Assembly: GCA_034231615.1 (NCBI GenBank)
Contig: CM067306.1
Span: forward strand, 30,698,617 to 30,762,616
Length of the DNA stretch: 64,000 nucleotides
Direction: 5' to 3'
DNA from: Meghimatium bilineatum
Taxonomy: Eukaryota > Mollusca > Gastropoda > Stylommatophora > Philomycidae
In this document: in pieces, positions 10,850-61,552 of the stretch
Layout of the letters: the number at the start of each line of letters is the position of its first letter
How positions within the stretch are numbered: position 1 is the first letter of the stretch
Program-made: the position numbers and the translations under genes
The notes under the pieces: model-generated
What the model saw: only the letters and a program-made list of their open reading frames with translations
Told to the model about the DNA's origin: nothing
Database searches by the model: none

Positions 10850-12235
10850 TCAGAACAATATTCATGTCATCACTCTTCCTCCACATACAGGCAACAAAGT
10901 GCAAACATTGGATCTGACTGCATTGGATCCATGAAAGAAGCATTTAGCAGATATATGGATGATAAAGAATGTTGAAAAAAACCTCTCCATCTATCAACTT
11001 GCAAAGCTTGGAGGTACCACTTTTGTTAGGGCCTCTACCAAACAAAACATTGTCTGGGTTCAAAACTACAGGTATTTGGCCACTGGATCAAGATATTTTA
11101 AATGTTGAAGATTTTCTACCTCCTGACATCACAGACAGGTCTCAGATTACAGAAGCACCAGTAACTATTTCAATTTAGTCTAATTTAGACAAGACTGATA
11201 AAAGAGCCTCAATCAGTGGTCCTTCAAACTACCTGACTTCATTGATAGCACCCTGACTTCATTGATAGCACTTATGTGGAACACAGGTTTTTGATGTTTC
11301 ACTTGAACACAACTGCCAGACTATCACTAAGACTAAGGGGTTATGAGGTGTAAATACAAAAACATACAAATTACAATACACAAGACATTTTCAACGTTTC
11401 AAACCATTAGGTCTTTTTTAAGGACCAATTTTAATTATTATATATTTATTTTTTTCATCGCATTTAATGTTTTTCATGCCATGCTCATCTTCGCTTGCGA
11501 AGGAGGAACATCATCATAATAAGGACAACACAAATTTAAACAAGTGAATATTCGGAGTCAAGTGCAAAAGGCTTGAAGGTACCAAACTCCAAATGGATTT
11601 ATTTTTTAGTTTGGCACCCTGTTATAGTGTATCTAGTGCCACTGTGGTGGTAACAATGGTTTTACTGTTTTTCAGTTTGTTTTAGATGTTCTTGAGACAG
11701 ACCTAATGGTTCAAAATGTTTTGTGTATTGTAATTTGTATGTTTTTGTGTTTGCACCTCATAACCCCTTAGTCTTAGTGATGGTCTGGCTGTTGTGTTCA
11801 CGTGAAACATCAAAAACCTGTGTTCTACGTAAGTACTATTGTTGTTCCGTTTCACTGCAGTATTACCTTATATGGCTTCATTGACAACAACATATCCAGG
11901 TGTGTCTCCAAATGATGATGCCCCAGCAGAAGCTTTAACAGTGTTTTCTCCTCCTGAATTATTTGAAGGATATCCTATGGCTGCCCCTCATAAGGAAAGC
12001 AATTGAGGGAGAAAATGTGGAAAAGCAAAGCTGACAACATCGTCTCCAGCAATGATAGAAATGAAATGCAGATCAGAAAACACAATGAATGTTACTATAT
12101 CAAAAGCCAAGAAATCACTTATTGTGCTTGAAGAAAATATAAATGATTCTGATGATACTGACAATATACCATATGATGATGCGACACAGATTCTATCGTC
12201 TCTGACACTGAGTGTGATAGTGATGATAAAAACAA
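10850..12235 (+). pseudogene. Pogo/Tigger-type DDE transposase, C-terminal relic
   Basis: Three pieces in different frames are recognisable. First, VITLPPHTGNKVQTLDL (about 10875-10928) matches the segment carrying the last catalytic Asp in pogo transposases. Second, after frameshifts, GFKTTGIWPLDQDI...EDFLPPDITDR (about 11049-11140) is the family's conserved post-catalytic motif. Third, beyond the insertion at 11265-11839, VSPNDDAPA and later GRKCGKAKLTTSSP with an acidic tail (about 11905-12235) match the usual C-terminal end. The DNA-binding domain and first catalytic residues are absent. It was not functional even before the foldback insertion, given stops on both sides. Confidence 0.8.
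11265..11839. mobile_element. Foldback-type insertion with ~150-bp inverted arms
   Basis: The left arm (11265-11415) and right arm (11690-11839) are inverted copies with few mismatches; both contain ggtttttgatgtttcac and ctaaggggttatgaggtg in opposite orientation. The ~275-bp centre includes a segment near 11545-11600 that recurs at 33245-33300 (attcggagt.aagt.caaaaggcttga). The insertion interrupts the pogo transposase relic. No clear target duplication was found. It could also be two inverted copies of one repeat. Confidence 0.75.
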
Positions 12236-15112: not shown

Positions 15113-15239
15113 TCATAAGCACTATAACAAACACATTGAGTATTGTGAAAACAATAAAATATAATTGTAAATAATACAAATAAATTAGGTCTTGTGAAAT
15201 CAGTAAACTGTTGAATTTTGTTTTAACTGTCCCTTTAAG

Positions 15240-15800
15240 CATTCCCATAGCAGTTTCACATCTTTCAGCAGATTCTTATTTCTCAGCAGATTCCCATAGC
15301 AGTTTCACATCTTTCAGCAGATTCCCATAGCAGTTTCACATCTTTCAGCAGATTCCCATAGCAGTTTCACATCTTTCAACAGATTCCTATAGCAGTTTCA
15401 CATCTTTCAGCAGTTTCACATCTTTCAGCAGATTCCCATAGCAGTTTCATATCTTTCAGTAGATTCCCATCTTTCAGCAGATTCCTATATCAGTTTCACA
15501 TCCTACAGCAAAATCACATAGCAGTTTAACATTTTTCAGCAGATTGTCATAGCAGTTTCACATCTTACAACAGATTCCTACATAAGTTTCACATCTTTCA
15601 GCAGATTCCCATAGCAGTTTCACATCTTTCAGCAGATTCCTATATGTTTCACATCTTACAACAGATTCCTACATAGGTTTCACATCTTTCAGCAGATTCC
15701 CATAGCAGTTTCACATCTTTCAGCAGATTCCTATATAAATTTAACATTTCTCAGCAGATTCCCATAGCAGTTTCAGATCGTTTAGCAGATGGTAAACATT
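15240..15800. repeat. 31-bp minisatellite
   Basis: Roughly 17 units of a 31-bp motif (cagattcccatagcagtttc + acatctttcag) are present. Several are shortened to a 'cagtttcacatctttcag' half-unit, and units with 'cctacata' or 'cctatat' in place of 'cccatag' lie in the right half. Confidence 0.9.
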
Positions 15801-15839
15801 GTATACTGATAGTTCCCTTAGCCAGGGGATTGCAAAATA

Positions 15840-16440
15840 GGACAGGGGTAGGAGAGCCATTTTCCGGCCTGCAAAGCAATTTTTACTGGCCTTTCAGCTG
15901 GTTTAACACTTTGTTGACCAAATTTGGCGATAGTTCAATTTCCAGTATATACCCTTGGTATATATACCGTGGTTTTTTTTATTCATTTCTTGCACAATCA
16001 CTTCTGATATTTGCTGAGTTATTCCCCTTGCCCTGAAATTATTCCTGGAGTTTTTCCCAGTGATCTTTAATGAAAGTCATAAGCACAATGATACTTCAGT
16101 TATACACCTATCATAGTGATAGTATCACTAAAAATAGCTCTCTCTGATAGTATGTCATTCCAAAATGCCCACAAAATAGTTTTACAATGTTGTTTGTGGG
16201 TGAATTCTTGAAGAATTTGAAATTTATCACAGGTAAGTTTGTGTGATCTGTTGAATGTAATGTTATATATGATTTGGGTTTTGAAATAACTCTGGGACTT
16301 TCAAATTAATTCATAAAATACAAACATTCATTATGATACATCGAACATTTGAAGGCTTTGTGTGGTGAATTTGATTTTATACACATTTTGGATGGCATGT
16401 GATTTGTTAATAAATTTGCTAACAACCTCAGAAATAATAA
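15840..16440. other. Non-coding stretch with a fragment shared with the TTAA element
   Basis: No gene was seen. At 15990-16040 it repeats interior sequence of the element at 13282-14738 (ctgatatttgctgagttatt and ccccttgccctga), so a related copy or its debris sits here. Its ends could not be set. Confidence 0.5.
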
Positions 16441-17175
16441 ATATACTCTCTTAAATACGTATGCTCTATTAGATAAGTATGCTCTCTTAACCCTCTGACC
16501 GCATATTTATTTCTGGAAGTTCTGTTAAAAAAATGTATTGGCAGGTACGTAATTGCTATCATCATCAGATTCCCCTTCAATTTCATTAGTCCTTCAAATA
16601 CATATATAGCAACTCTGTTCTTACCTCAAAGCATAATTCTGAATATTATCAGTATTTTAAATCGCGGGATAGCAATGCAAAGAAACATAAATAATTGCGA
16701 GCACGCGGAAATCGTGGGATGCGTAAAATTAAGCCAGTAGGTGCTGAACGGGGAAATCACGGGATACCCGGTCGGAGGGTTAAATAAGTATGCTTTCTTA
16801 GACAAGTATACTCTCTTAGATAAATATGCTCTCTTAGATAAGTATGCTCTCTTAGATAAGTATCTTCTCTGAAATAAGTATACTCTCTTACATAAGTATG
16901 CTCTCTTAGATAAATATACTCTCTTAGATAAGTATGTTCTCTTAGATAAATATGTTCTCTTAGATAAGTATCTTCTCTGAAATAAGTATACTCTCTTACA
17001 TAAGTATGCTCTCTTAGATAAGTATACTCTCTTAGATAAGTATGTTCTCTTAGATAAGTATCTTCTCTGAAATAAGTATACTCTCTTACATAAGTATGTT
17101 CTCTTAGATAAATATGTTCTCTTAGATAAGTATCTTCTCTGAAATAAGTATACTCTCTTACATAAGTATGCTCTA
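16440..17175. repeat. 18-bp satellite array with higher-order periodicity
   Basis: The basic unit is 18 bp (gctctcttagataagtat). Between about 16850 and 17175 variant monomers recur in the same order (…tatcttctctgaaataag, tatactctcttacataag, tatg(c/t)tctcttagata(a)…), giving a higher-order unit of about 90-126 bp repeated four times. Minus-strand translation gives an open YLREHT-type repeat of 159 residues purely because 18 is a multiple of three. A 289-bp MITE interrupts the array at 16491-16779. Confidence 0.92.
16491..16779. mobile_element. PiggyBac-type MITE inserted into the 18-bp satellite
   Basis: It is flanked by TTAA at 16487-16490 and 16780-16783. The termini are CCCTCTGACCG at the left and, on the opposite strand, CCCTCCGACCG at the right (10 of 11 match). 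Three internal copies of 'aaatc(g/a)(c/t)gggat' lie at about 16660, 16710 and 16755. Removing the element and one TTAA restores a continuous satellite monomer (gctctcttaaataagtat), so the insertion is exact. Confidence 0.88.
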
Positions 17176-17179
17176 GATT

Positions 17180-19220
17180 GCTATTCAGAAAAGTGGTAGG
17201 AAGTATAATACACTGACCTTTGAGACCAGAAAACACTATTTATAACTCTAATTGTGATTATCTTGTTGGCCAATGTCTCTGAAAATTTTATGAGTAGATG
17301 CTTCTTTCAAACACTTCTACAGACTAAGGAATGACTTTAATTTAAAATTTAGGAGAAATGTGACATCAATTGCATAGGGTAATATTGTCAAATATGGCTG
17401 AAAAGTTTAAAGTGTAGAGGAAAATCCTGGAGGTTGACTGGTATGTTTGAGAATAAATTTTACTACTATTTTATAATGATTTCTTGACATGTTTTTGCCC
17501 AGTACACCCATCTTTGGGAGATCAAGTCTGTTCACTTATTTACCTGATGTACCGGTATGTCATACTCGTAACTTGGTTTGAAATTCTGTAGTTCCTATTA
17601 ATTCTAGTTTGTGTGATGCTATGTTTTATATTCTCCTGTTTGGTGGGAATACAATTCATGTTTTTATGTCAGTCATATTTTTTAAATACATGTTTTCCAT
17701 TGGGGAGTTGCAGGGAGAAATTTTGTAGCTTTTATAGCATTTGTGTGCATTTCATAATGATGTAAATTTTCATTTCACACAACAATGGAATATTGTGCGC
17801 CTTCCACATGCAAATAAGGAGGCTGCTTAAAGCTAGAGGAATACTCCCATCTTGTGATATTTTGCAGACTTGGGTCATCTTATTAGATATTTAGCTGCAA
17901 TATTGTTTACAGTAACTGATCCCAGCTGGTGTGAAATTTTTTCCCAATATTTTCCACTTTGTGCCAGTTCATTTTCTTAAGCTAAATAAATAAGAGTATC
18001 CACGATACTAGCTTTTTATTGTCACTAGAAAATATATACTGCATAGATGGGATGGTTGACGCTTACTGGAGCTTGACAGTTTCAGAGTGAAATCATTTTT
18101 AATTTTGTTTTCATTCATAGAAAACAAAACAAAGGATTTGTTAACTCATCAATAGCAGTTAGAGGAACAAGTAAAGTATTACATAGCAGCTCATTGGTAA
18201 ATATCTAATACACAGGCATTAGAATATGGCGAAAGTGCAACATGTATATTATCAACAACGGCTCTGTTCTAATAAAAGGCTACTTGCCTACAGAATTTAT
18301 TGCTGTCCCTTGTTATATTTTGTATTCTCATTTGACCCCCCTTATTAAATTGTATATCATTTTGCATTACCAGGCACAATTTGTTTTGTAAATTTGTATT
18401 CCCGCTAAACAGGAAAGTATCAGTTTCATATGTTCCATGCTTGATTGCCTCTCTTTTTGCAGAGTGATATGGAGTTTTAACACAGATTATGTCACAGAAT
18501 CTCTTTCGTTGTCTTTTGTCTCAGCTCTTGTCCAATTCTCCGCCTTTCAAGAACTGTCCAATTGTGTCCATCTATTGAACAATAGATAACTAACACTCTT
18601 AACAGTTGGCCTGTTATTTTTACAGTCTGATTCTTTATACCTGTCTTTTACAAATAGTCAGTCCTGATTCATGTGAATTTAATCGGGGTTTCAATATTCG
18701 GAATAGGCCATATCATTTCACCATGCCTGGAAATGCAACAATAATTAAAAATAGATACCCTATACAGGAAATATTTCTATTATTATTATTGTCTTATCAT
18801 ATACTTAAGCTTGCAATCATTAAGTTTAGTCATTAAGCTTGCAGTCATTAAACTGTTATCTGTGATCAACAAATCCTGGGCTTTCATGTTTTCCTATATA
18901 AATCTAAATAAAATATATATAAAATATAATTTTAAATGTTCTATATAAATCTTTATACAGAACACATAGGTGTCAACTAGTACGGATTTTCCATATTGGT
19001 ACAAATTTCGGGCCCAAAAAAATACAACCTAAAAACCACTTACAGATCAATAAGAACATCTCATTCAAATAACTCTCAATAGGTGGCCAATATCTTGAGT
19101 GGACACCTCCTACTCGGAGGGAAGATATGTTCCACCATTTTGTTTGCAAACTTCCAATCATATAAAAGCCTGCAACCATTTGGTGGTATCTTTTGCTATA
19201 CTGTGACCCCCCCATAGCCC
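17180..19220. other. Intergenic, no gene recognised
   Basis: AT-rich sequence with many stops in all frames. Short runs such as 'attaagcttgcagtcattaa' near 18815-18850 are local duplications. I see no coding, RNA gene or transposon termini. Confidence 0.45.
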
Positions 19221-20607: not shown

Positions 20608-23600
20608 TCACTTATGCATGATCTTCATTTTTGGCATGCTGAGCATTGCCACCTCATCAGGAGATAGCAGGTAAGATGAAATCTCTGTCTCATCAAATTC
20701 TGAATCATTCAAATCAGGACTATCAAGGTCAACGTGTGACAAATTAATCACTTCTGGCAACAAAGTTTTATGTCTAGATTTTTTTAGAATAGACGGAAGT
20801 AGAACATCTTTCTGAGATGAATCATAACTGTTTCTTTTTGTGCGATGCTGATTTTTTGTTTGTCGTGCAGTTTTTCGTTTTGATTTATCATTTAACTCCT
20901 GGTCTGTTTCTGTAATGTTCTTATCCAAAATTCTGCTGTCAATATCATGTGACTTGAAAGCAAGCTGCATAAGACTGTTCTGAAAACTGAGAATATCATC
21001 TATGTACTTGTAGATGGTGGAGCGTTTTATATTTCTGGTAATTACCCATGGAATACTGCAAGCAAGTTTTAGAAAAAACCTGTAACACTCTGCCTGAAGC
21101 AACAGGGATATGTTTGGAAAGCTGAACATTTGTCTGAACGCTGTCATGCTAATAAAGCCTGCACATACATCTGAACTAACATAAGCATAATAGGCAGCAA
21201 TAATTATAAGCCCTTCCCTGGATCTACCTTGTGTAAGCCAAGCTTGTCTACATAGAAACAAAATATCTGTTACTTTTGACATAATTCTGGCATTGAATCC
21301 ACGATTAACAAGAAGATGTTCAATTTGAGTGCTTAAGGCCATGTGAGGAAGAGTAATGTTCAGACACTTTAACACAATTTTTTTCCCTTTCAAAAAAACT
21401 GAAAAATTGTCAACCAATTTGCGAAAGTGTATCAGAGTGATTGGGATATTATGTTGTCTGCACACAATGAAAACACAGGCGGCTGCAATATGTTCTTTGG
21501 TGGTGATATAGGCATACATAACTGGCGATCTGTCAAATACTTTATCAAACATTTCTATTGCTTCATCTTTGATAAAGTCTGTGAAACAGAGTTTATTATG
21601 AAGAAAAGCTATTTTCAGATGTCCAGCATCTTTACCATGCAGTTTTCTTTGCAGATTTGCATTCGCTGGAAGCGTCACAAAGCTATTTCTGTAAGATCGT
21701 GACATTATTTCAAATTCATCATTCATTAAAGATTCATTCCCAGCAACAGTTCCACAATCTTTGCACACCAAACGTTCATCTGCACCTAAACTGTCCATAC
21801 TAAGGTTTGTGCTGTGACATGACTTGCATGTGTTTACTGTTGGAGTACATTCAGAGTTCTTGCTTGCTGATTCTTTCTCATGCTGTGCTGTCATATTTTG
21901 TTCATTGTCAGCCATTTGACCTGATTCCAGCTCTTGACATTCAGGACATATATCTAACTGCACGTTGGCTGACAATCCATCTCCACAATACCTACAAGTC
22001 ACCTGTTCTTGTTTCACTCCGAGAAATTGAATTACATTTGTGTCAGGAGTCTGCAGATATAAGAAAATACTGTTTTGTGAGTGGGAGTGTATGAGCAGAT
22101 GTAAGAGTGGCTATGATAATGATGTAATAATCCCTTTATCTGTGAGCAGGTAGCTCTTGACAGCCTATAGCCTGTCTAATGAAAGCACAGGTTCATATCG
22201 GTGTAACTGAGGTAGCACCAAGACTCTTGAGGTCTAAAACGTATGGTTTTGTAGGGGTGGGGTTTATACAATGGTCCTACTAGATTTGATTTTCAGCAGA
22301 ATGCTGTCAAGAGAACAGAGATGCTTTGTGTTACTGTTTTGTGAAAATAAAACCAAACTCACCTGGAAATCAAACATTGGGATAATTCAAATTAAATCTT
22401 TAAAAAACTTACAAGCATGTCCTGGTGTGGGAACTCAAAAATACTAAAACAATTGTATAGGGGCCAGTCAGAACAACTATGGAATACGATTTGAAGTGTT
22501 GGGTTTCTGCTGCCATAACGAATATAGAAAAACTCAACATAATTTAAAACACGAGATTTAATTAATGCTTAGAGCAATGACCAAAACATTCCTGAAGTAT
22601 GTATATATGTATCTAGCAATAAATACATCAATGTGGTGACCTATAGGTGCATAGAATGAGTTTAAATAAATTTTTACGTGAAATTTGTTATCTAATATTA
22701 TCACATAATTTTTTTTGTAATGTATACTTCATTCTAATTTTTTTTTTTAAACAATTATCAGATACATGTTTAACCATATAGAAAATTCATTGCCGGACAT
22801 TTACATATATAATAAATATTATCAGAAGTATAATTAAATGATTCATAATAAAATTGATAACAGCAGTCATAGATAAAAATTCCTGCTGAAAAACAGGCTG
22901 GTAAAACTGCAGTTTTGCCGCTGTCCTACTAAGAGTTAATAGTGATCACCTGAAAATTCTGGGCACATCAATGGCTATTGCAGTAGACGTCGACAGGAAA
23001 ACCAGAATGATGTTTTATGTACCGTAAGTGTTCAAAGAATCGATCAGCAAGCTCCTAGCCAGTCTCACCTATGTACATCATGGTGCAGCGCTTGCAGATG
23101 ATGGCACAAATGATGTTGTGGGACACACACAAGAAACTCTCCTCAATGGTGAAGATGGCCTTGGAGGATGTGACGGACAGGTGTAGCATATAGAGTGTTT
23201 GCAGCTGATACTGCCATAATGATTTCTGATATCAGGCATAAGATGACTCCGGACCAGTAAATCCCTGATATTCTTGTCATGCCTGTGCACAACCAAAGCC
23301 TGTTGTAGAACACTTCATGTGTCTCAGGATCCGACTGGAGAAGAGGAAGGTGATGGAGTAGGATATATTTCTGTACATTTCCTGTTTGTGTCACCTCTGA
23401 CCTAATTTCTATCCTTCCGGCCACCCTCACATCTGACTAGACATGTGTACGCCAGTTATGTCGTCCCTGTTTGTCATTTTTAGATGTATGCATGAATATA
23501 ACCGTGATAAAGACCTTTTGGTCGAGATGTTGATTTGTGTGTGATTATGTGTCTTTCTAGTTATTAGCAAAACTTCATTACCCAGTTTCAAGCTTTACCT

Positions 23601-29199: not shown

Positions 29200-29790
29200 C
29201 AATTCAAATATTTAGTTACACCGATTACAGCAGATGGAAGATGTTAAACAGAAATAAGAAGCAGAATAGGACAGGCAAAAACAACATTCAGAAAAATGAA
29301 AAATATAGGCCCTATTGTGTAATATGACCTTGTCATTAGAGGTGAGAAAGAGTTCTGCATTGCTATATAACCCCTATACTAACATATGGGTGCAAGTCTT
29401 GGACAATAAACAAACTGGAAAGTGGGAGATTATAGGCAATATAGATGTGGTTCTATAGAAGAATGCTGAGAATACCATGGGCTGCCAGAAAAACTAATGT
29501 AGAGGTGTTGAAAGAGTCAAATGTGAAACGGACTTTAATCAATAATATAAGAAAATGGCAATCTTCTTTTTTAGCCACTTCATGAGACAGGCAGGTTTGG
29601 AGAACTTAGTCACAACAGGCAAAATTAAAGGCAACAGAGACAGAGGGCGACAACGTGAGAAAATATTAGACAGTTTGACAACCTGGCACGGCAAGAAAAC
29701 AACAACGACCGTGATACATAATACTCTGGACAGAGAGCTGTGTAGAGCCATGACCGCCTACGCCAGCCGGCATGGCACTTGATGATGATG
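29200..29790 (+). mobile_element. RTE LINE 3' copy, plus orientation
   Basis: It encodes MWFYRRMLRIPWAARKTNVE, NNIRKWQS, TTGKIKGNRDRGRQREKILD and ends AYASRHGT-stop, then TGATGATGA. RRMLRIPW...TGKI.G.R.RGRQR...AYA..HGT is the standard RTE ORF C-terminus and a short TGATGA repeat is a typical RTE 3' end. Stops and frameshifts are present upstream. Confidence 0.85.
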
Positions 29791-30059
29791 AACTCACTTG
29801 TATCAAAAGGCAAATGCCTACCATTCGTACCCCCCCCCCCCCCCAAATTAACGAAAAGAGACTTTTAAGAAAGGTGCTAACTGTATTCAGAAAAATGTAG
29901 CAAGATTTGACATTATAATTCCTAACTATTAGTTAATACTAGAAATAGGTCGATTCCAGATCTGCCATATTTAAGTAAAAAAACAAACTCTCCATCAATG
30001 TGTGTAGCTTTCACTGGTTGTACTTATATGTAAAGGTTGTAGAATAATAATAATCATCA

Positions 30060-30415
30060 TCAGGTGCCATGCCGGGTGGCGTAGGCGGTCATGGCTCTCC
30101 ACAGCTCTCTGTCCAGAGTATTATGTATAACGGTCGTTGTTGTTTTCTTGCCGTGCCAGGTTGTCAAACTGTCTAATATTTTCTCATGTTGTTGCCCTCT
30201 GTCTCTGTTGCCTTTAATCTTGCCTGTTGTGATAATGTTCTCCAAACCTGCCTGTCTCATGAATTGACCAAAAAAAGAAGTCCGTTTCACATTTGACTCT
30301 TTCAACACCTCTACATTAGTTTTTCTGGCAGCCCATGGTATTCTCAGCATTCTTCTATAGAACCACATCTCTATTGCCTATAATTTCTCACTTTCCAGTT
30401 TGTTTATTGTCCGGC
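30060..30415 (-). mobile_element. RTE LINE 3' copy, minus orientation
   Basis: The minus strand is open for 102 codons: the same C-terminus as 29200-29790 (RRMLRIPWAARKTNVEVLKE, ...AYATRHGT) and a CATCATCA-complement tail. Relative to that copy it lacks about 10 codons (the LINNIRKWQS segment). The two copies face each other tail to tail across 270 bp. Confidence 0.87.
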
Positions 30416-41504: not shown

Positions 41505-42490
41505 CATTTGGTTACTGTGGAACTCTCCATTTTGTCCGACATCCTCTGCTTTTTGGTTATTTATATGAGACAATTACACTGACCCAGAGAAACAACAGTG
41601 GAAGAAACACTTTACGGACCTCTGTATGAGTTACAAAATACGTTTATACAAAACACACTTATGAGTCAGGTTTATAGAAGAAACGAAACTTCAGATAAAG
41701 CATGTTCTGTGAAGAACATATACGAAGAGACTGATAAATCAGTTCGGAACTGTAACGGTCGGTCGCTATACTCTGAAGGATTTAGAGCACCTAAGGACTT
41801 GTCTGGTGTGCGCTGGTGATAACCTGCAGTCAACCTATAATTGTTTGTTTTTGTTTTTTTTAAACATGGCGATCTATGTTTATTTTTAAAACGTTAGTGG
41901 TAACACTACACCTGGCTCGGTTCCAGGTATGCTATTGGCATTTTAAAGATCAAATTCGACAAATTTGGCATTTTTGATGTGTTTGACTTCATGAAAATTG
42001 GGCTGGCTTATTGACCTTTTCTTGGGCTTTTTTCAAAGTTAGTAATTAAATGCAAAAGTAACTATTCAATCTATAATTCTATACGCTAAAATAAAATTCC
42101 GATATTCCGGTGTCTTTGTTAGAAAGAATAAATCTAATATTGGCAAATTTACTGATTAAATATGAACTTTGTAAACGTCTGTTGCAAAGTTGGTAGGGAC
42201 ACCGACAAGGCAATAAGTCAAGCAGTAAGAACCTCGTACCTGCCGAAATCTAGTGAGACGATTGATATAATTCAAGAGAGATCCGGTTGAATATGAAAAC
42301 GAACGGGGAAGAAAAAAAAAACCGTGAATGGAAAGTTCTCATAAAACATTTACTGATTAAACATTGAGGGGGGAGATTGAGATAAAACAACGGGTGTTTT
42401 AAAATAACACGGAAATGATAGGTCTATTGTTTGATGCCGCAAAATGCTTTCATCTGATATTATTACTGTCATCAGCGAAAATAAGTTATC
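41505..42490. other. Mostly unrecognised sequence with a short LINE tail
   Basis: 41590-41640 encodes TVEETLYGPLYELQNT, an L-R1 C-terminal scrap. The rest shows no gene, tail or terminal repeat. 'aacatttactgattaaacat' and 'aatttactgattaaatatga' (42345 and 42145) are a short direct repeat. Confidence 0.5.
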
Positions 42491-42496
42491 AGAGTG

Positions 42497-43525
42497 TAAT
42501 TGGAAGAGTAGACAGTCTTATTCTGAGGTTACATGCTAATTAAGCGGAAGAGTGGGCAGTCCTATTTTGTGGTTACATGCTAATTAAGTGAAAGAGTGGG
42601 CAGTCCTATTCTGTGGTTACATGCTAATTAAGTGAAAGAGTGGACAGTCCTATTCTGTGGTTACATGCTAATTAAGCGGAAGAGTGGGCAGTCCTATTTT
42701 GTGGTTACATGCTAATTAAGTGAAAGAGTGGGCAGTCCTATTCTGTGGTTACATGCTAATTAAGTGAAAGAGTGGACAGTCCTATTATGTGGTTACATGC
42801 TAATTAAGCGGAAGAGTGGGCAGTCCTATTTTGTGGTTACATGCTAATTAAGTGAAAGAGTGGGCAGTCCTATTCTGTGGTTACATGCTAATTAAGTGAA
42901 AGAGTGGACAGTCCTATTCTGTGGTTACATGCTAATTAAGCGGAAGAGTGGGCAGTCCTATTTTGTGGTTACATGCTAATTAAGTGAAAGAGTGGGCAGT
43001 CCTATTCTGTGGTTACATGCTAATTAAGTGAAAGAGTGGACAGTCCTATTCTGTGGTTACATGCTAATTAAGCGGAAGAGTGGGCAGTCCTATTTTGTGG
43101 TTACATGCTAATTAAGTGAATGAGTGGGCAGTCCTATTATGTGGTTACATGCTAATTAAGTGAAAGAGTGGACAGTCCTATTCTGTGGTTACATGCTAAT
43201 TAAGCGGAAGAGTGGGCAGTCCTATTTTGTGGTTACATGCTAATTAAGTGAAAGAGTGGGCAGTCCTATTCTGTGGTTACATGCTAATTAAGTGAAAGAG
43301 TGGACAGTCCTATTCTGTGGTTACATGCTAATTAAGCGGAAGAGTTGGCAGTCGTATTATGTGGTTACATTTTAATTAGGTGAAAGAGTTGGCAGTCCTA
43401 TTCTGTGGTTACATGTTAATTAAGTGGAAGAGTTGGCAGTCCTATTCTGTGGTTACATGTTAATTAAGTGGAAGAGTTGACAGTCCTATTCTGTGGTTAC
43501 ATGTTAATTAAGTGGAAGAGTGCCC
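42497..43525. repeat. 44-bp satellite with 132-bp trimeric higher-order units
   Basis: About 23 monomers of 44 bp (gtgaaagagtgggcagtcct + attctgtggttacatgctaa + ttaa). Three monomer types alternate strictly: A (gcggaagagtggg...ttttg), B (gtgaaagagtggg...ttctg) and C (gtgaaagagtgga...ttctg). A-type monomers start near 42543, 42675, 42807, 42939, 43071 and 43203, exactly 132 bp apart. Monomers at both edges are diverged and not in this order. Confidence 0.95.
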
Positions 43526-43639
43526 ATGTTGTTTAGTGTAATTTTGGAAATCTGAGTAGATGACTGAGGTGAGAGAAATAGCCAGCCATATGCGTTCATT
43601 GTTGCAAGCCTAATGGAAAGCCTTAAATAAAAAGACTGA

Positions 43640-44768: not shown

Positions 44769-45166
44769 ATGTTAGATGTTTTATTATGAAAATCTAGTTG
44801 GGATTATACTACCAACCAATTCAACTGGAATTCTAGAGTGTTTTTGTGTAATGTAGTGCTATTAACTCATAAATTATAACTGGAAGTACATTTTGTTTAG
44901 TTTTCGAGCGGTCCTGGTTTAACTAGGGAGCTGATGATACACTTGTTTTAACAGATAATTTGTACCCCACTACAACTACAACATCGAGTATGAGAATGGA
45001 AATTGCAGCGGTGACAGCAGCTCTCACTTAGTTGGCGACGCAGACACCAACAGATTCAGTGATTCTAACGGACTCTCAAAGTATGCTGCGCAAGATATAA
45101 AAGTGTATGATCAGAACTGAATGGGTCACTCTTCTCAACAACTCGCAGATCATTATATGGATCTAC

Positions 45167-46700
45167 AAATGGTCAAACATTGCCAAAAGATGAGACACCT
45201 ACATACCTTGGAGTCACTTTTTATCCAAGACTTACATGGAAACAGCACATAGACAAGTGCCAAACAAAAGGTACAACGAGGACAGCACTCCTTAAAAAAT
45301 TGGCTGGAACAGATTGGGGTGCAAATGGAAAAATTCTAAGTAGAGCATATACAGGTTATGTAAGACCAGCATTGGAATATGGAATGTCAGCATGGGGGAC
45401 TGCAGCCAAGAGTAACACTCAAAAGATCTCAAAGATACAAAACCGCAATCTCAGAATTATAACAGGAGGTATGAATACTACCCCAATCACAGAAATGGAA
45501 ACATGCACAGGTTTGCCATCAATGGAAGAAAGAAGAAATGAAAAAAATCCTCACACAGTATGCAAAGTTCAAATGTTTGGAGAGTCATCAAATGAACCAA
45601 AGACTAAGCAGACCTACAAAAGAGCGACTCAAAAGAGGTAGCTTTCTACACTCCGCTAAACAGCTCCAGAAATCACTAACAGATACAGACCTACAAAACC
45701 TAAAACCACTAAACACCTCTAACACATACCCAACATGGGACAGGAAAAAAAAATTCCCAAGAATTATGGACAATATACCAAGCATTATTTCGAAAACAGA
45801 CACTACTATACAAGTACTAAAGGAGACAACTAAGAATCACATACAGAAAGCATACCCAAAGGATATATGGACACATGTATATACAGATGGATCAGCGAAA
45901 GAGGCAGTATTAGATGGAGGATCAGGAATATATATAGTAACACCAGATGGAAAAGAAATAGAAAAATCCATACCCACAGGCAAACATTCCACAAATTTCA
46001 AAGCAGAAATGGAAGCCATAATAGAGGCAGCCAAAATGCTCATGAATTGCTTGCCGAGTCACAACAGACATGTAGTATTTCTAACGGATGCAAAATCAGT
46101 ATTGCAGGCATTGAAAGATCCAAAGAACACGAGCATGAATGAACTTACGGCCTGCTCACTACACCTCAGCAGTACCACCAAAGAAACAGTACTGCAGTGG
46201 ATCCCAGGTCACTGTGGCATACCTTGAAATGAAAAAGCTGATCTCCTGGCAAGGAAAGGGGGATCACTGGAAAAAATAGAAAATGATAATACGTACTATG
46301 AAAGTAAGACCATGTTAAAAGCAGAATATAAGAAAAAGTGGAAGCAAATGCACAGAACTGCAGAACCAAATGACCCCTACCACCAAATGTCACGCAAGGA
46401 ACAAACCATCATTTTCAGACTACGAACTGGTCACAACAGACTGAGAAGTCACATGTTCCGAAAGCTGAAGATTGGTGAGACAGACCTGTGCAACTGTGGA
46501 CTGAGCCCAGAGACTGCAGAACACATTCTTCATGCCTGTCAACTCTACCAAGAAGAGAGGGAGAAAATATGGCCTACTGAGACGGTACTGCTTCCAGACT
46601 TGAGGGGTTCCATGGATGACCTGAAGCGAATCACACAATTCATTGAAGCTATTGGTGCTGTAACCTGATATCTGACTGAAGAACGATGAAGAAGAAGAAG
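45167..46700 (+). pseudogene. L-R1 RNase H LINE, youngest 5'-truncated copy
   Basis: The 12-bp target duplication ATATGGATCTAC flanks it at 45155-45166 and 46701-46712. It encodes the RT end (YLGVTFYPRLTWKQHIDKC), thumb (RPALEYGMSAWGTAA), then RNase H with VYTDGSAKE, NFKAEMEAI, FLTDAKSVL and NEKADLLA, the four acidic residues all present, and a C-terminal CNCGLSPETAEHILHAC. Only two lesions were seen: a frameshift near 45540 and a TGA at 46226-46228 where Gly of GNEKAD is expected. The tail is GAAGAAGAAG at 46691-46700. It lacks the upstream RT core and endonuclease. Confidence 0.92.
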
Positions 46701-51644: not shown

Positions 51645-52075
51645 TATCTTCTTCTTCAACGTTCATTCTCAAACTCCCACTAGTTTGGTGAGACAAACCT
51701 GTGGACTGAGCCCAGAGACTGCAGAACACATTCTTCATGCCTGTCAATTCTACCTAGAAGAGAGGGATAAAATATGACTCACTGAGATGGCACTACTTCC
51801 AGACTTGAGGAGTTCCATGGATGACCTAAAGCGAATCACACAATTCATTGAAGCTATTGATGCTGTAACCTGATATCTGACTGAAGAACAATGAAGAAGA
51901 AACTCCCGCTAGATCCCCTTTGTAGCAGGACTATGATGCTACTAAATTTCCAGCAGGATGTAGTCCAGAGAATGGAAATGCGTTGTGTTGCCATTTTATT
52001 TGCGCCAATTGCACCAAAACACATCAGTCTTCAGCGGGACAATGATATGATCCTCGGATACTGCCACACTGGAAT
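51645..52075 (-). mobile_element. SINE-B split by a LINE tail
   Basis: SINE-B in minus orientation: 51645-51683 (tcttcttcaacgttcattct and caaactcccactag) and 51913-52075 ('gcaggactatgatgctacta', 'tttccagcaggatgtagtcc', 'aatgcgttgtgttgcc', 'cacatcagtcttcagcggga'). The interruption is 51684-51900. Confidence 0.85.
51684..51900 (+). mobile_element. L-R1 LINE 3' tail inserted in SINE-B
   Basis: Flanks AACTCCCACTAG (51672-51683) and AACTCCCGCTAG (51901-51912) differ at one base. The insert matches 46483-46695 of the young LINE very closely (ctgagcccagagactgcaga, gacttgagg.gttccatgga, ctgactgaagaac.atgaag). Confidence 0.9.
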
Positions 52076-52119
52076 GTCCCCTTTTGGGGATTAAACATGC
52101 ATCCATAAACCCTCTAGCA

Positions 52120-52312
52120 CGGCGGTTCTCAACCTGTGGTTCGTGACACCTATGGGGGTCGAACAGCCCTTTCACAGGGGTCGCCTAAGAACATCGGACA
52201 TATGAAAACCACATTATGTAGTAGTAGCGAAAATAATTTTATGATTGGGGGTCACCACAATATGATGAACTGTATTAAAGGATCACTACATTAGGAAGGT
52301 TGAGAACCGCTA
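52120..52312. mobile_element. SPIN-type hAT MITE
   Basis: The ends read GCGGTTCTCAACCT and, inverted, AGGTTGAGAACCGC. The interior has 'gggggtcgaac', 'ccctttcacaggggtcgcct', 'aagaacatcgga', 'gcgaaaataattttatg', 'ttgggggtcaccacaa', 'gaactgtattaaagg' and 'cattaggaaggttgagaacc', in the order known for the nonautonomous SPACE INVADERS (SPIN) hAT element. Eight-base flanks CTCTAGCA (52112-52119) and TTCTATCA (52313-52320) fit the hAT target pattern with two mismatches. Length 193 bp; part of the usual centre is missing. Confidence 0.93.
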
Positions 52313-52700
52313 TTCTATCACAACCATGACTTTGAGACAACAGTAACCATATACAAGTTTGGATTTCACTTCAGATTCTCAACTAAAGAGAACTTTGTTA
52401 GAAAGGCTGTGAGCTATCAAGAGCTACTTGCTCACAGCTAAATAGCGAAAGGAATTCAGCCTAGAAAAAACCATAAAAAAGAAAATGATGCCAGGACAAC
52501 AAAAAAGAGGTAGGCCTATGCCATGAAGAAGATGAATGCAAGACATCAATAACCACCTGAACATGGCAGTCTTCTATTTACTCCTGCTCACAGCTAAAGG
52601 GATTACTTAATCATTATCATCATCACTTTTGCATATTTGATCTTTTTTTTTTAAAGAACATTTAAACTGTACATAAGATACTTTCATGTTTACTTCCAGG

Positions 52701-55700: not shown

Positions 55701-58700
55701 ATTTCACATGTTGCACTTCCATATGTTGTTACCAGTTGGCATGGTTTCTGAGATTTTTTAATCTCTCCATCTGATACACATAACTTGATCTTCATCATTT
55801 ATGAACCATTTTGGTTCATGGACAGTTATTTTCTTATTCTTGATTTCTGATGGAAATCCTCATCTGTTCGCATTGTAAGTTCCAGTATAATGGTGGTTTC
55901 TCTGCCGCAGAAACTGGACAAGAAGTAGGGAAGAATAATACCTTTCAGCAAACAAATGATGATGTCCTGTGAAGCCTTTTAGTAGTTTCTCAAAGATTTT
56001 GACAGCATGGGTAGAGTTTGCGTCTGTTTCCAGCCTGTATGTCGTGTCCGCACCATAATATACCAACAGGTTGAAAACATATCTGGTGATGGAGTCACAG
56101 AGTCCATATGACCTTATATATTATTTTTTTGGCTTGCTTGAATTATATTACTTGTTCCTAAACCCACCCTTGTGACCTATAACCATCCCATCCATGCATA
56201 TGTTCTCAGAAGGATAGAATGTATTTTGAAAGCTTGCAGCTAATTCATTTATAAATGGCTCTATGTTACATTTATCCTGTGCATCAGCAGCATGAAACAT
56301 TGATTGGTAAATCAATAAAAATATGAATTATTTTTTGAAAATTGATCCACACCAGGGGCTACTTCTGTGTTTTTGCGGACCAAAAGTCTTTTATAGAATG
56401 TTTAGGTTCCAATCCCATGTTTATAAGTGACCAGAAACTTTATAAACATATTTTGGTCAAGCAGAGTCCATTTAGAATAGGTTGAATATTTCCTTTGAGG
56501 TGCATTCATGTACAGTTTCTGCTGGGCATAAGCACACATATACTCTCCTTCTAGGGCTTCACATGCCACACAGCTACAATCCGAGGTCTAGCTTGTCCAT
56601 TGGTAGTAGTTTGATTCATAGGCCTACCTGTAGCATTAGTAGACCTAGAAGTACCTGTGAAATCCTCTGAATCAGTAGATTCATTACTACAATTGGATGC
56701 TTGAGAGGAAGTGACATTCTTTGTATTTTTTAAATAAAATACTTTTATAAAACCTAAGCCTGACTGCTTTTATTTTTAATTTTTCGGCAAGTTCTCACTA
56801 GGCTGAATTGTGAACTGAATCATCAGTTTCCGATTCACTAATGAGCAAGCTCTGAAATATAACCATAACTTATTCAACACTGTATCTGGAAGGGGCGAGT
56901 GTTGCCATTTTTTGTCACATATAAACAATACAATAGAATTAAATAAAACACTTTCCTACAACACACATGCTTCATCCTATGAATAAAATGGATGTGAAAG
57001 TATCTAGGATGTTTTGGGGTTAAAATAAGAACCTACACTGGCCACAACGGAATATAACATCAATATATGATCATTTGAAAATTGAAACTGATATACTGGC
57101 GATTGGTCCTGTAGAGCATGGATATCAAGCCATTCTGGATTGGTGCAGAATGAGTTAATGATATGAGGATAATTATGATATAATTTCTTTAGCTGTGAGC
57201 AGGTTGCTCTTGACAAAGAGCACCTTTCTTACAAAAGCACCAGATTCTTCATGTCTATGGCTAGAATGCAAAACTTGGGAGTGAAGCATGGTGTTACAAG
57301 AAATGAACGGCATATAGGAATCAAAAGAAGAGTTATCAGCCAACGCAGAACTGGAACAGTCACTGACCACACGTTGAAGTACATATTGAATTTGAGATTG
57401 CCATACCTATGGACTTGTCAGAGTGCCATGATAATGATCTGATAACAAATAAAGGCAGAGCTGTTCCTCAGTTTAGTAGCTGAGGGGACACCTGAACACG
57501 TATAAGGTTGGTCGAATCAAAGTCATGGTTGTGTGTGTGTGTGAGGGGTATGGATGTATATTTAGTACCCAAAGAAAGGCATTCCGGTGTGACACTATAC
57601 TGGACATATCTCATCCTATCAGGAGTGTAGGATATATTCCTGGGCTAACTAGTTCATTTTTCTGTGAGTTATTTTGACACATCTGTAGTAATGGTACACC
57701 TAACATTCATCTCCACAAACGTGCAATGTCTGCTAGCCTGCATCTCTTCATCATCCATGGGGGACCATTTAACAGAAGACAAAAGTAAGAAATCGAGACA
57801 AGACATGCAGTGACAATGATTTTCTCACAGTGACAGATTTGTCAGCCTATCCCCAACTATCCCCAAAAATCCATGATAAAGGCACAACGAAAGCCTAACT
57901 TACCTCCACGGGATGACTACCACCTATTTAGCAGACAAGAACAGGTCATCATATTTCGACTGAGAACTGGACACAATAGACAAAACAGCCATATGTATAC
58001 AAAATTTAAAATTGGCACAACAGCAAAGTGTAATTGTGGACAAGTCAACCAGACTTCACAACATATCCTTCAAGAATGTGTAAACTATGACACATTAAGA
58101 TGCACATACTGGCCTTCTGATACACCAATGAATGTTAAACTTTATGGTACAAAACAAGAAATGGAAAACACTGTCCAATTTATACAAGAAACAACACTGC
58201 AGATATAGACATTATTAGCGAACGAAAGAAGAAGAAGAAGCACCTCAAAATAACCCCACAAATTTTTTTTGGGGATTATTGTTTTCGGGATCGAAATCCA
58301 TATCAATACGGAAATTCCGTACTAGTTAACACCTATGCCGTATTGACCCCAAGCAGTTACATGGGATGTGTGTTCAAAAGTGACCATCATTGATGGTTGC
58401 TGATCTGACGGTCCATGAGCTCATGCCCTTTGATTCAGATATTAAATTGCTGAGACACCATCATTGATGCAAATGTTTTCAAGCTTTCATTACAATGGAT
58501 GTGTACATACAAAATGGTGGACGTACTTTCTTACATATACAAGTAGACTGAATAGGAGAACTATTTTCTAAGTATTGCTTACTGTTAAGAGCTGTAGCCA
58601 TCTGTGTATGATAGAATGCTCTTGAGAAACTCGCACCCCATTCCCAATTGCACATAGAAAAACATGAGCTTCACACTTAATTCCTGGAGATAATGATTTC

Positions 58701-61552
58701 TTCTTCTTTTGTTCGCATGGAATGTGTCTATAAGTGAAGTGAGATAATGATTTCTTCTTTCATTCGCATGGAATGTGTCTATAATTAAAGTGAGATAAAG
58801 GATTTCTTTTTTCATTTGTAGGGAATGTGTCTATAACTGAAGTGAGATAATTTATTTTTTCTTCTTTTATTCACTTGAAACGTATCTATATCTGAAGTGA
58901 AATAATGATTTATTCTTCTTTTCTTCACTTTGTATGTGAACCAGGTTTTTGACCACGTTATCTTAAGGGCAGGCAAAGGCTTAGCAGCAATGAAGGTTAT
59001 GGCTGCTCAGCAGTGTGAGCAGAGGTTGTTATTTCTTTTGTACCAGAGTTTGGTTGTGGCTGTGGTGAAATATACTCTGGCAATTCTGATTCTTAGTCAG
59101 ACTCAGATAGAAAGATTGGATAGAATCCAGAATGCAGCAATGCATATCATACTTTGGTGCTCAAGAGACACATCGACAAGCACTATGCGGTACCGTCCAA
59201 CAGCAGAACACAGATTGCAGCATGGACGTACCTTCAAATGCATGCAGATACGGAACACCCGTTGTATTCTGTAATACAGAAAATTAAAGGCAGCAGACTT
59301 AAGAGAGAGAAGTCATGGATGGGACATGCTGAGGATGTCATACAAAGCGTGTACAGATTGCAAGATGTGGCAGCAGGTGCGAAATGGATGTCTACTCACA
59401 GATTTTGAAACGTGTTTGAGAGTAGTAATATCACTTAGCAGGGAATGCAGAGAATGGTGTCCCACAGCTGTGAAGAAAGAAGTGCAGGCTTTGGTCAGTG
59501 AGAATGCTATAGAGAGGGATGTGATTATATACACTGATGGATCTGTGATTAGACATGTTCGCAGTGCTTGGGCTTTCACAGCTCAGTGCACAGGTAAAAT
59601 GATCAGGGAGGAGAGTAGGGCCTTTGCGGTTACTACGACCCTGACCATGGAGACTATGGCAGTGTCCAGGGCATTTGAGTGGGTATGCACACAGAAGGTA
59701 ACACAGGTCTGCATATTGAGTGACTCTATGAGTATGATTAGGAAGGTACAAGTGGGTTTCGTTCACGAACAGTGGATTGAGGCCTTGAGAAAGGCGAGGC
59801 TGAAAGTGGTTACATTTATTTTTGTGCCAGGGCATGTGGGTGTTTGAGGTAATGAAAGAGCAGATCACCTGGCATCATGCACAATTGTAGCACAGGACAA
59901 TTTGACAATAGATTGATCAGACGTTTTGAACTCCTTAAGAGATATAGCACACAAGACTAAGACTAGTGTGGATGATGATCCCTTTTAAATGGCCAGGATT
60001 AAGGATCAGGGTTTGAAATTCGGTGTGGCTAGAAGTGAACATTTTGGAGGGGGAAGAAGAATGATGGTCAACCAGCATAGGACTCATACTGTCAGTAGAA
60101 GTGCAATGGCGGATACACTCAGGGAGAGATCAGAGCACCTTTGGATGTGTCCAGTTTGCAGTGATGATGATCTGACGACTAACTAACCTGGTACGTGGCT
60201 ATATCTGAAGCAAAATAATGATTTCTTCATTTGTTCACCTGGAACATGCCTATATCTGAAGTGAGATGATGATAAAATAATTCCTTTTGCTGTGAGCAGT
60301 TAGTTCTTGACAGTGCATAGCCTTTCTGACAAACATACAACTTCTTCTCAGTTGTGTAACTGAGGCGCCACCCAGACTAATAAGATTGTCTCAAAGACAT
60401 GGATGTGTAACTGAGGTGACACCCAGACTGTTGTCTCAAAGGCATGGATGTATAAGGGTTAAATTTTGATGAACATTTAGTTCCCAAAGAGAGATATTCC
60501 AGTGCTTAATCATTTCAAAATGCACAGCATACACATCTATTCCTGGACATAAAAACAATGTATTCCACACTTTCTGTTCATGAAATAGGCCTTATTTCTA
60601 TGTAGATCCATATCTTCAGTGCTTAAATTATGTCTTTCAATTTCCTGTTTTTTCATCCTGTCCCAACGATCCTCTTTTGTGTAGTTTCTTAAATCTAGAT
60701 TGGTTGGCAGAATGTAATGCAGTCCCAAAGATCATATCTGACTTCTGCAGCATATATTCTTCAATTGTCATTTTTAGCATCTTGTTCTTTTATAGTACAT
60801 TATAAGAAGTAAAACCTGGCAGATGAAAAGTGTACAATGAAGACAGAAACACTATAATGAAAGATAATTATTTTACACCCTGGCAACAGATCTGGAGATG
60901 TAGCATCACCAAAAACGTAAATTCAGGAGAGACATTAATAAACATGTTCCACAACTTGCATTCTGTACAAGTAGATAGCGCGTGCATTCTGTACAAGTAG
61001 ATAGCTTGTGTTCTGTACAAGTACTGGTAGATAGTTTCATTCTGTACAAGTAGATAGCTTGTGTTCTGCACAAGTACTGGTAGGTAGTTTCATTCTGCAC
61101 ACGTAGATAGCTTGTGTTCTGCACAAGTACTGGTAGGTAGTTTCATTCTGCACACGTAGATAGCTTGCATTCTGTACACGTAGATAGCTTGTATTCTGTA
61201 CAATTAGATAGTTTGCATTCTGCACAAGTAGATAGCTTTCATTCTTTACAAGTAGATAGCTTCTTGCATTCTGTACAAGTAGATAGCTTGCATTCTGCAC
61301 AAGTAGGTAGCAGAACTATGTAAGAATAATAATAATAAACATTTTGTTTTTTCCATTTCTTTAAATGAGTTTAAACATTTTTTTTTTATTTAAAGGAGAG
61401 AATGTGTGATCTTTGTTGTGGATATAATTTTATAATAAAATTAATTTCTTTCTTTTACACCATGCAGAAAACTGTGGCTGGAGCAATATCACTAGGATAG
61501 ATCCTTACCAGGGGCCTGTACAAATCTCAAGTCTATACGGAATAAATGCCAG
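52701..61552 (+). CDS. Secreted or type I membrane protein, first two coding exons (3' partial)
   Basis: Exon 1: acceptor-like cttccag|GGCAAG at 52700, then ATG at 52752, coding to 52824 with donor G|gtatgt. It encodes MAQKGLLAPVVTIFSVLITA then VCCVG, a good signal peptide with a hydrophobic core at residues 5-22. Exon 2: 61468-61552 (acceptor catgcag|AA, donor AG|gtacat) joins in phase 1 to give ENCGWSNITRIDPYQGPVQI then SSLYGINAR; the other two frames have stops. The exon carries one Cys and an N-glycosylation sequon (NIT). 'CG...GPV.ISSLYG' is faintly like the start of a CUB domain, but the family is not recognised. The rest of the gene lies beyond the window. The 8.6 kb intron is full of mobile elements. 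Confidence 0.72.
53180..54590 (+). pseudogene. L-R2 RNase H LINE with SINE-B insertion
   Basis: It starts FSKHVTNMI, resumes after the SINE with QKAKRGISFIKVMATFDMQQ (post-RT segment), then IIYTDGSIYRN, RMEIEGVTAALNWLI, SVILTDSKHTAQD and NERVDLMAGNAV (RNase H), and VNEAENVHIQRILEM. The 3' end is 'gagcacttatgggaatgtcc'. Several stops and shifts. It lies in the intron of the gene at 52701-61552. Confidence 0.85.
53213..53367 (-). mobile_element. SINE-B with target duplication, inside L-R2
   Basis: AAATATGATTC lies at 53202-53212 and 53368-53378. Between is SINE-B on the minus strand with its CTTCTTCTTCTGCG-complement tail and 'tctagcaggatcatggtcct' insertion. Removing it restores the LINE reading FSKHVTNMIQKAKRG. 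Confidence 0.92.
54641..54917 (-). mobile_element. SINE-C, full-length tRNA-derived copy
   Basis: TTTACTATA flanks it at 54632-54640 and 54918-54926. Minus strand: tRNA-like head with AAGCACAGTGGTTAGAGCAC (box A) and GGGTTCATTCC (box B), body with 'cccaggtcggcccagcctta', 'gggagaggagatggctac' and 'gaaatgtgagatcactaaca', and a TTTACTTTACTA tail. Length 277 bp. It is the reference copy for the truncated element at 50691-50810. Confidence 0.92.
55130..56600 (-). pseudogene. PiggyBac-type transposase relic (PGBD-like)
   Basis: On the minus strand, from 56600 down: WTLLDQNMFIKFLVTYKHG, QFSKNNSYFY; then FINELAASFQNTFYPSENIC + MDGMVIGHKGG (the first catalytic-Asp region), VYYGADTTYRLETD, KLLKGFTGHHHLFAERYYSS (the segment usually carrying the second catalytic Asp as DNYY, here ERYY), HHYTGTYNANR, then GEIKKSQKPCQLVTTYGSAT and, near 55374-55200, FKDILIEELC. 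Frames shift repeatedly. A SINE-A lies inside at 55500-55612. TTAA termini were not located, and the Cys-rich tail is not intact. Confidence 0.82.
55500..55612 (+). mobile_element. Internally deleted SINE-A in the piggyBac relic
   Basis: 'gggcccgagaggggaacaaa', 'gaatagcaacgctgtttacc', 'ttccatgcatgtcatatgg', then directly 'cgtttgagaacgaacacaga' and AGAAGAAG. The central ~150 bp of SINE-A is absent, so 5' and 3' ends are fused. Confidence 0.85.
56600..57165. other. No gene recognised
   Basis: On the minus strand a short acidic stretch (LLISESETDDSVHNSA) near 56800-56850 might be the N-terminal end of the piggyBac relic, whose family often starts acidic. Nothing else is seen. Confidence 0.35.
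57165..57640 (+). mobile_element. L-R2 LINE 3' end
   Basis: It encodes MARMQNLGVKHGVTRNER, then QRRTGTVTDHTLKY and LPYLWTCQSA, matching the C-terminus of the copy at 60000-60170 (MARIKDQGLKFGVARSE, QHRTHTVSRSAMAD, HLWMCPVCS). The 3' UTR block 'cccaaagaaaggcattccgg' follows, similar to 60481. Confidence 0.75.
57850..58240 (+). pseudogene. L-R1 LINE 3' copy, open C-terminal domain
   Basis: It is open for 111 codons: YHLFSRQEQVIIFRLRTGHN, RQNSHMYTKFKIGTT, CNCGQVNQTSQHILQEC and KLYGTKQEMENTVQFIQETT, then a stop. The tail reads GCGAACGAAAGAAGAAGAAG. This tail and that of SINE-A (GAACGAACGCAGAAGAAG) are close. It is 5'-truncated; no certain target duplication. Confidence 0.88.
58240..58680. other. 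Unrecognised intron sequence
   Basis: No element ends or coding seen between the LINE tail and the tandem array at 58685. Confidence 0.4.
58685..58930 (-). repeat. Tandem copies of a LINE 3' tail, ~61 bp each
   Basis: Four units of about 61 bp: 'ttcttcttttgttcgcatgg', 'aatgtgtctataa.tgaagt' and 'gagataatgatt'. The unit resembles the complement of the L-R1 3' terminus at 25741-25775 (cttcttctttcgttcacttg, aaacatgtctatatctgtaa). A further two units lie at 60190-60265. Confidence 0.8.
58930..60540 (+). pseudogene. L-R2 RNase H LINE, most complete copy
   Basis: Post-RT region: GKGLAAMKVMAAQQCEQRLL and LDRIQNAAMHIILWCSRDTS. RNase H: VIIYTDGSVIRHVRSAW, METMAVSRAFEWV, VCILSDSMSMIRKV, FVPGHVGV*GNERADHLAS. 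C-terminus: MARIKDQGLKFGVARSE, HLWMCPVCSDDD and a stop near 60185, then a 3' UTR with 'gctgtgagcagttagttctt'. One stop (59847) falls where Gly precedes GNERAD, close to the analogous lesion at 46226 in L-R1. The 5' RT core is absent. Confidence 0.87.
60540..60950. other. Intron sequence, nothing recognised
   Basis: No repeat family or gene identified. Confidence 0.4.
60950..61312. repeat. 24-bp minisatellite before exon 2
   Basis: About 15 units of 22-37 bp are built on 'cattctgtacaagtagatag' + 'cttg'; a longer variant unit has 'gttctgcacaagtactggta' + 'ggtagttt'. The array ends 155 bp before the exon at 61468. Minus-strand frames stay open because the unit is often 24 bp. Confidence 0.9.

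Follow-up and report, generated by a model that had tools for sequence, protein, structure and literature searches.

SPIN (SPACE INVADERS) elements are hAT transposons that include short non-autonomous forms and are best known from tetrapods; the rodent URR1 elements are derived from them. A 2010 study by Gilbert is said to have found SPIN in the pond snail Lymnaea stagnalis as well. For the freshwater snail Biomphalaria glabrata, one report describes about 1,000 copies of a hAT element with 'significant identity' to SPIN, and no intact transposases (PMC5440852). Another, citing Gilbert 2010, names SPIN sequences of Rhodnius prolixus that are non-autonomous (NA) forms (PMC11614815). Transfer of SPIN-type elements across phyla is already known, and the genome described here is a further host that leaves this principle unchanged.

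The 193-bp element studied here is almost certainly a fossil non-autonomous SPIN (hAT) copy, of a family that would have come from another animal, given rise to a short form by internal deletion, been mobilised and since died. It resembles tetrapod SPIN, as represented by an uncurated reference, in its ends, in its subterminal sequence and in the internal sequence of the long copies found in the same genome, and differs from it in having a gastropod host and a short form with an internal deletion of its own. As in Rhodnius and Lymnaea, the host is an invertebrate; unlike the blood-feeding insect and the pond snail, it groups with a land snail. The Biomphalaria element is, by its description, also a hAT element in a gastropod (PMC5440852); its host is a freshwater snail and the present one is of land-snail type.

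The window, by which we mean the whole 64-kb stretch of DNA analysed, is located 30.7 Mb into contig C9; the genome comprises 1,612,235,226 bases in 32 contigs. The sequence-only reading had placed a 193-bp SPIN element between 8-bp hAT-type flanks, and its coordinates proved exact: the element occupies 52120-52312, on the + strand and in the orientation of the SPIN consensus. It is bordered by the target-site duplications CTCTAGCA on the left (52112..52119) and TTCTATCA on the right (52313..52320). The two are identical at 6 of 8 positions and share a TA centre; the left one matches the family pattern. Its terminal inverted repeats are CGGCGGTTCTCAACC (52120..52134, + strand) and, read as the reverse complement, TAGCGGTTCTCAACC (52298..52312, - strand). 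The element therefore has the short terminal inverted repeats and 8-bp target-site duplications of hAT transposons. Its duplication also has the TA centre of the nnnTAnnn pattern that characterises the Buster group of the hAT superfamily.

An inverted repeat of 21 nt, 86% complementary, pairs 52115-52135 with 52297-52317, and the 14-bp motif GCGGTTCTCAACCT is found exactly at both ends of the element in inverted orientation. The same motif recurs at two more places in the window with 3 mismatches each, and a total of four places is not above chance (28 of 100 shuffles reached it). When folded as a single strand, the element is unusually stable (z -4.0, with none of 200 shuffles equally good), which probably reflects its paired ends. 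We found no second SPIN copy within the 64-kb window, no database protein matching the element's own 58-aa frame, and no Rfam match in the window.

The window also holds sites that the element did not enter. We joined the two flanks in a script, removing the element together with the right flank copy, and the joined sequence matched two places in the window across the junction: 57470..57598 on the - strand (69%, 90/131) and 60427..60504, also on the - strand (76%, 61/80). These matches are not due to chance (E 1e-8 and 2e-8 in two runs), and the two places are paralogous empty sites, that is, element-free copies of the host repeat into which the element inserted, duplicating about 8 bp. Since the joined flanks match element-free repeat copies, the element is a genuine insertion rather than a chance likeness. 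The empty-site copies are old, and the bases right at the junction do not align cleanly.

Several other repeats lie in the window. Remains of non-LTR retrotransposons are found at 45111-46668, 51699-51901, 57834-58208 and 58909-59847, two of them carrying RNase H (Pfam PF00075); 46494-46696 and 51699-51901 are 94% alike, and the SPIN copy stands about 200 bp downstream of the latter. The arms of a large fold-back at 29401-30412 measure 223 nt (94%) and 135 nt (98%), the inner ones standing 263 nt apart; its ends are GGACAATAAACAAACTGG, and it shows no clear flank duplication. A palindromic element at 11265-11839 has 131-nt arms, 92% complementary, that are 313 nt apart. Tandem arrays occupy 42365-43632 (44-bp units), 16431-17246 (18-bp) and 15179-15827 (31/18-bp).

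For the family assignment we compared the element with an uncurated SPIN-like consensus, an uncurated rodent URR1-like one and, as a control, an uncurated MER5A consensus with the same terminal repeat. The SPIN reference DNA did not come from curated Repbase or Dfam entries and is a lead rather than a test; it was fixed after the window copy had been seen and before the other 39 genome copies were. The window copy is identical to it at 170 of 193 positions, with 23 aligned bases differing, and the local score of 209 compares with a maximum of 30 among 500 shuffles. The majority consensus of 40 genome copies (187 bp) agrees with the uncurated SPIN at every position (187/187), with a single 36-bp internal gap.

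One could suppose instead that the element belongs to an ordinary, vertically inherited molluscan hAT family of which only the ends are SPIN-like. The genome is indeed rich in hAT sequences (for PF05699, 150 scored matches among 2569 first-look candidates), and the uncurated MER5A (Charlie) consensus shares the terminal repeat seen here. Yet the match to SPIN spans the whole element and not its ends alone, MER5A scores only 22-23 and thus no better than its shuffles (maximum 27), and such conservation of non-coding sequence is not expected by descent. We therefore regard a native molluscan family as very improbable.

The reading as SPIN draws further support from the protein databases and from long copies in the same genome, both of which back the uncurated sequence. 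Using the translation of the uncurated SPIN, a 97-aa chimera of two frames, as a query, we obtained 39 database proteins at E<=1 among 44 candidates; because that sequence served as the bait, their resemblance to it follows from the choice of query. Six of the 39 carry a species name, and all six are from tetrapods: Myotis myotis (2), Xenopus tropicalis (2), Gekko kuhli and Staurois parvus; the remaining 33 have none. In tblastn against the 64-kb window, 37 of the 39 matched, all within 52097-52360, in several frames and on both strands, while P0037 and P0046 had no match there.

All 39 proteins matched the snail 40-copy consensus at E<=0.01. Its translation is identical to a Myotis peptide over 29/29 aa (P0012, bases 2-88) and to the Gekko peptide over 27/27 aa (P0013, bases 187-107), and a second Myotis peptide agrees at 31/32 aa (P0009, bases 187-92), so that the Myotis stretches combined span nearly the whole short element. 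The named frog peptides match less well than those of bat and gecko (Staurois P0041 20/21 aa; Xenopus P0019 23/26 and P0024 32/57). SPIN DNA patterns gave nothing in IMG/VR or GTDB contigs, nor did SPIN DNA in phages by blastn, collections in which animal DNA is not expected, and a search of the literature with SPIN oligomers found no related paper.

The copies within the genome were aligned and their divergence measured, as had been proposed for dating the arrival. A search with the window element gave 40 scored matches, itself included, out of 959 first-look candidates, and the other 39 are spread over 18 contigs. Selected for similarity to the window copy, these 40 may be an unrepresentative sample of the family. 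In 21 of them the two flanks agree at 6 or more of 8 positions, and in the other 19 at fewer than 6; when flanks were re-paired in 2000 trials, such pairs numbered 3.9 on average and 10 at most. Of the 21 good pairs, 19 have the TA centre in the left flank and 20 in the right one. The hAT-type flank that had been read from the single copy is thus borne out by its own 6/8 agreement, by its TA centre, by the empty sites and by the genome-wide pairs.

A 38-bp SPIN pattern, allowing up to 3 mismatches, occurs at 188 places in the genome (91 and 97 per strand), of which 6 are without mismatch and 39 have one; the reversed control occurs nowhere. A binomial fit to these counts, which assumes one common divergence and pools short and long forms, gives about 359 copies (289-485) at 9.3% divergence (7.9-11.0). 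We found no copy in 20 evenly placed 10-kb stretches (200 kb), a result that says little given that fewer than one was expected.

Over the 40 aligned copies the mean K2P distance to the consensus is 0.095, or 0.075 when CpG sites are excluded, and the mean pairwise distance of 0.177 is about twice that to the consensus. The window copy is more drifted: it matches the consensus at 164 of 187 aligned bases, has a 6-bp insertion, and stands at a K2P of 0.136. Only 13 columns have a second state in at least 8 copies: one gap and 12 transitions, of which 10 fall at CpG sites as assigned by hand. CpG itself survives in 225 of 397 cells. A pairwise distance twice that to the consensus, with variable columns that are mostly CpG transitions, indicates that the copies radiate from one founder. 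The copies are star-like, with no subfamily standing out, as would follow from one old burst of a few hundred copies. At the mammalian neutral rate of 2.2e-9, a divergence of 9% would correspond to about 40 million years; the rate in snails may differ, and we claim no age.

The segment missing from the short form exists elsewhere in the genome. A 71-nt query from the uncurated SPIN gave 40 scored matches of 84 candidates, most of them covering its positions 7-71 and up to 94% identical. The URR1-like query gave 42 matches, reaching positions 51-136 at most and up to 96% identical. The snail long copies thus share with rodent URR1 an internal and right-hand stretch (query 53-136 of the uncurated sequence). 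Query 1-50 was reached by none of the 42 matches, so that we did not encounter the rodent short form as such in the snail. In four long copies the right SPIN end, consensus bases 89 to 183-187, is present at 88.9-90.8% identity, and leftward of that end they also share internal DNA at 72-91% pairwise. One long copy, L068 (G000:C25:97289990-97290520), contains three tandem copies of a 47-bp internal unit, an internal minisatellite.

A full-length element with SPIN ends does exist in this genome: L076, the one such copy with both ends in view. It spans 2192 bp (182-2373 of the stretch read), begins with consensus bases 1-90 (87%) and ends with bases 89-187 (88%), and its flanks TTTAAGAC and TGTTAGAC agree at 6 of 8 positions. 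In the short form, 90 bases from the left and 99 from the right of a long copy are joined with an overlap of 2. The forward frames between the ends of L076 are interrupted by 27, 36 and 47 stops. The search for a full-length transposase source that had been called for thus recovered such an element, with a transposase-like gene that is broken.

Transposase-like sequence stands next to many of the long copies. Among 40 long-form places, 28 have a transposase-like match no more than 2 kb upstream on the same strand and 12 have none, the comparison covering 78 of the 152 transposase places reported. L073 has broken transposase-like frames, with no left end within the 2.5 kb read, and L072/L074 is truncated by a retrotransposon; the retrotransposon piece at L072 1-1734 carries RNase H and borders directly on a SPIN copy that lacks its 5' part. 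In L075, the second-best transposase-like match, blastn detected no SPIN end over the 3.5 kb of that stretch. The broken transposase pieces matched no hAT domain in Pfam and no hAT protein in PDB, where one unrelated match came at E 0.34. The protein is a putative hAT transposase on account of its adjacency to hAT-type ends and of what is known of SPIN. With the transposase broken in L073, L074 and L076, and presumably in the remaining copies, the SPIN family in this genome seems to be dead.

We propose the following history for the family. A full-length SPIN from another animal would have entered the germ line of a gastropod ancestor, and an internal deletion of about 2 kb, visible in the structure of the copies, would have produced a short element keeping both ends. 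Transposase made by full-length copies may then have bound the common ends in trans, cutting and pasting the short form into an estimated few hundred sites. Such classical trans-mobilisation is the most likely mechanism. Decay has since broken the transposase genes of the long copies inspected, and the family is apparently dead. The window copy inserted into a host repeat with duplication of 8 bp and now differs from the consensus by 12%.

The sequence-only reading had also taken the element as a trace of cross-phylum transfer that constrains the identity of the host. The element itself does not identify the host; a neighbouring gene does place it. A BRF2-like gene (TFIIIB 50 kDa subunit) at 20608..22110 on the - strand is a single 500-codon open frame with Pfam PF00382 and PF21886. 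Its database relatives number seven, and no tetrapod is among them: Bradybaena similaris, a stylommatophoran land snail, and one further sequence are 54-55% identical, and Physella, Lymnaea, Biomphalaria, Aplysia and one further sequence 40-49%. In a tree of 8 sequences the host joins the Bradybaena pair with support of 100/99; identity within the tree set is 54-57% to these closest relatives and 38-44% to Lymnaea, Physella and Biomphalaria. The host is thus a heterobranch gastropod, closer to land snails than to the pond snails in the set.

As SPIN is best known from tetrapods, vertebrate DNA might have contaminated the sequence or its assembly. The copy sits, however, inside a repeat whose uninterrupted copies occur in the same window, it lies far within a contig and 30 kb from the snail-type BRF2 gene, and its relatives turn up on 18 contigs. 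Contamination is accordingly scarcely credible.

The element is thus resident in a gastropod genome, and the consensus of its copies, which is non-coding, is identical to bat and gecko translations, while the BRF2 of the same host is only 54-57% identical to that of its closest relatives. Identity of non-coding DNA between snail and tetrapods is not expected by descent and argues for horizontal transfer. Cross-phylum transfer of SPIN, as first read from the window copy, is well supported by these comparisons.

SPIN might instead have entered once, in an ancestor shared by land snails and freshwater pond snails, and been inherited by both; this could account for the SPIN reportedly found in Lymnaea as well as for the SPIN-like hAT reported in Biomphalaria (PMC5440852). 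Against it, the copies stand only about 9% from their consensus, whereas BRF2 retains just 38-44% identity to Lymnaea, Physella and Biomphalaria, and neutral copies as old as that split should be far more diverged. Such a shared old entry seems improbable to us. At this divergence the copies seem more recent than the split from Lymnaea and Biomphalaria, which favours a separate entry into the present lineage. We lean towards the reading that SPIN entered the land-snail (eupulmonate) lineage independently of pond snails and Biomphalaria, as a full-length element with ends identical to those of the tetrapod invader. We met no mention of SPIN in land snails among the titles and abstract starts listed, a coverage outside which the main SPIN papers fall, and the Arion genome paper (PMC9392753) contained none of the four terms looked for.

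With this genome a land-snail-like host joins the SPIN network, and long and short copies are available together in one chromosome-scale assembly. It allows direct testing of the time of arrival, of single against repeated entry, and of a common carrier, for example a parasite of both snails and vertebrates. If the independent entry into land snails is true, gastropods would not be one-off victims but would have received SPIN repeatedly, or relayed it, within a single worldwide wave.
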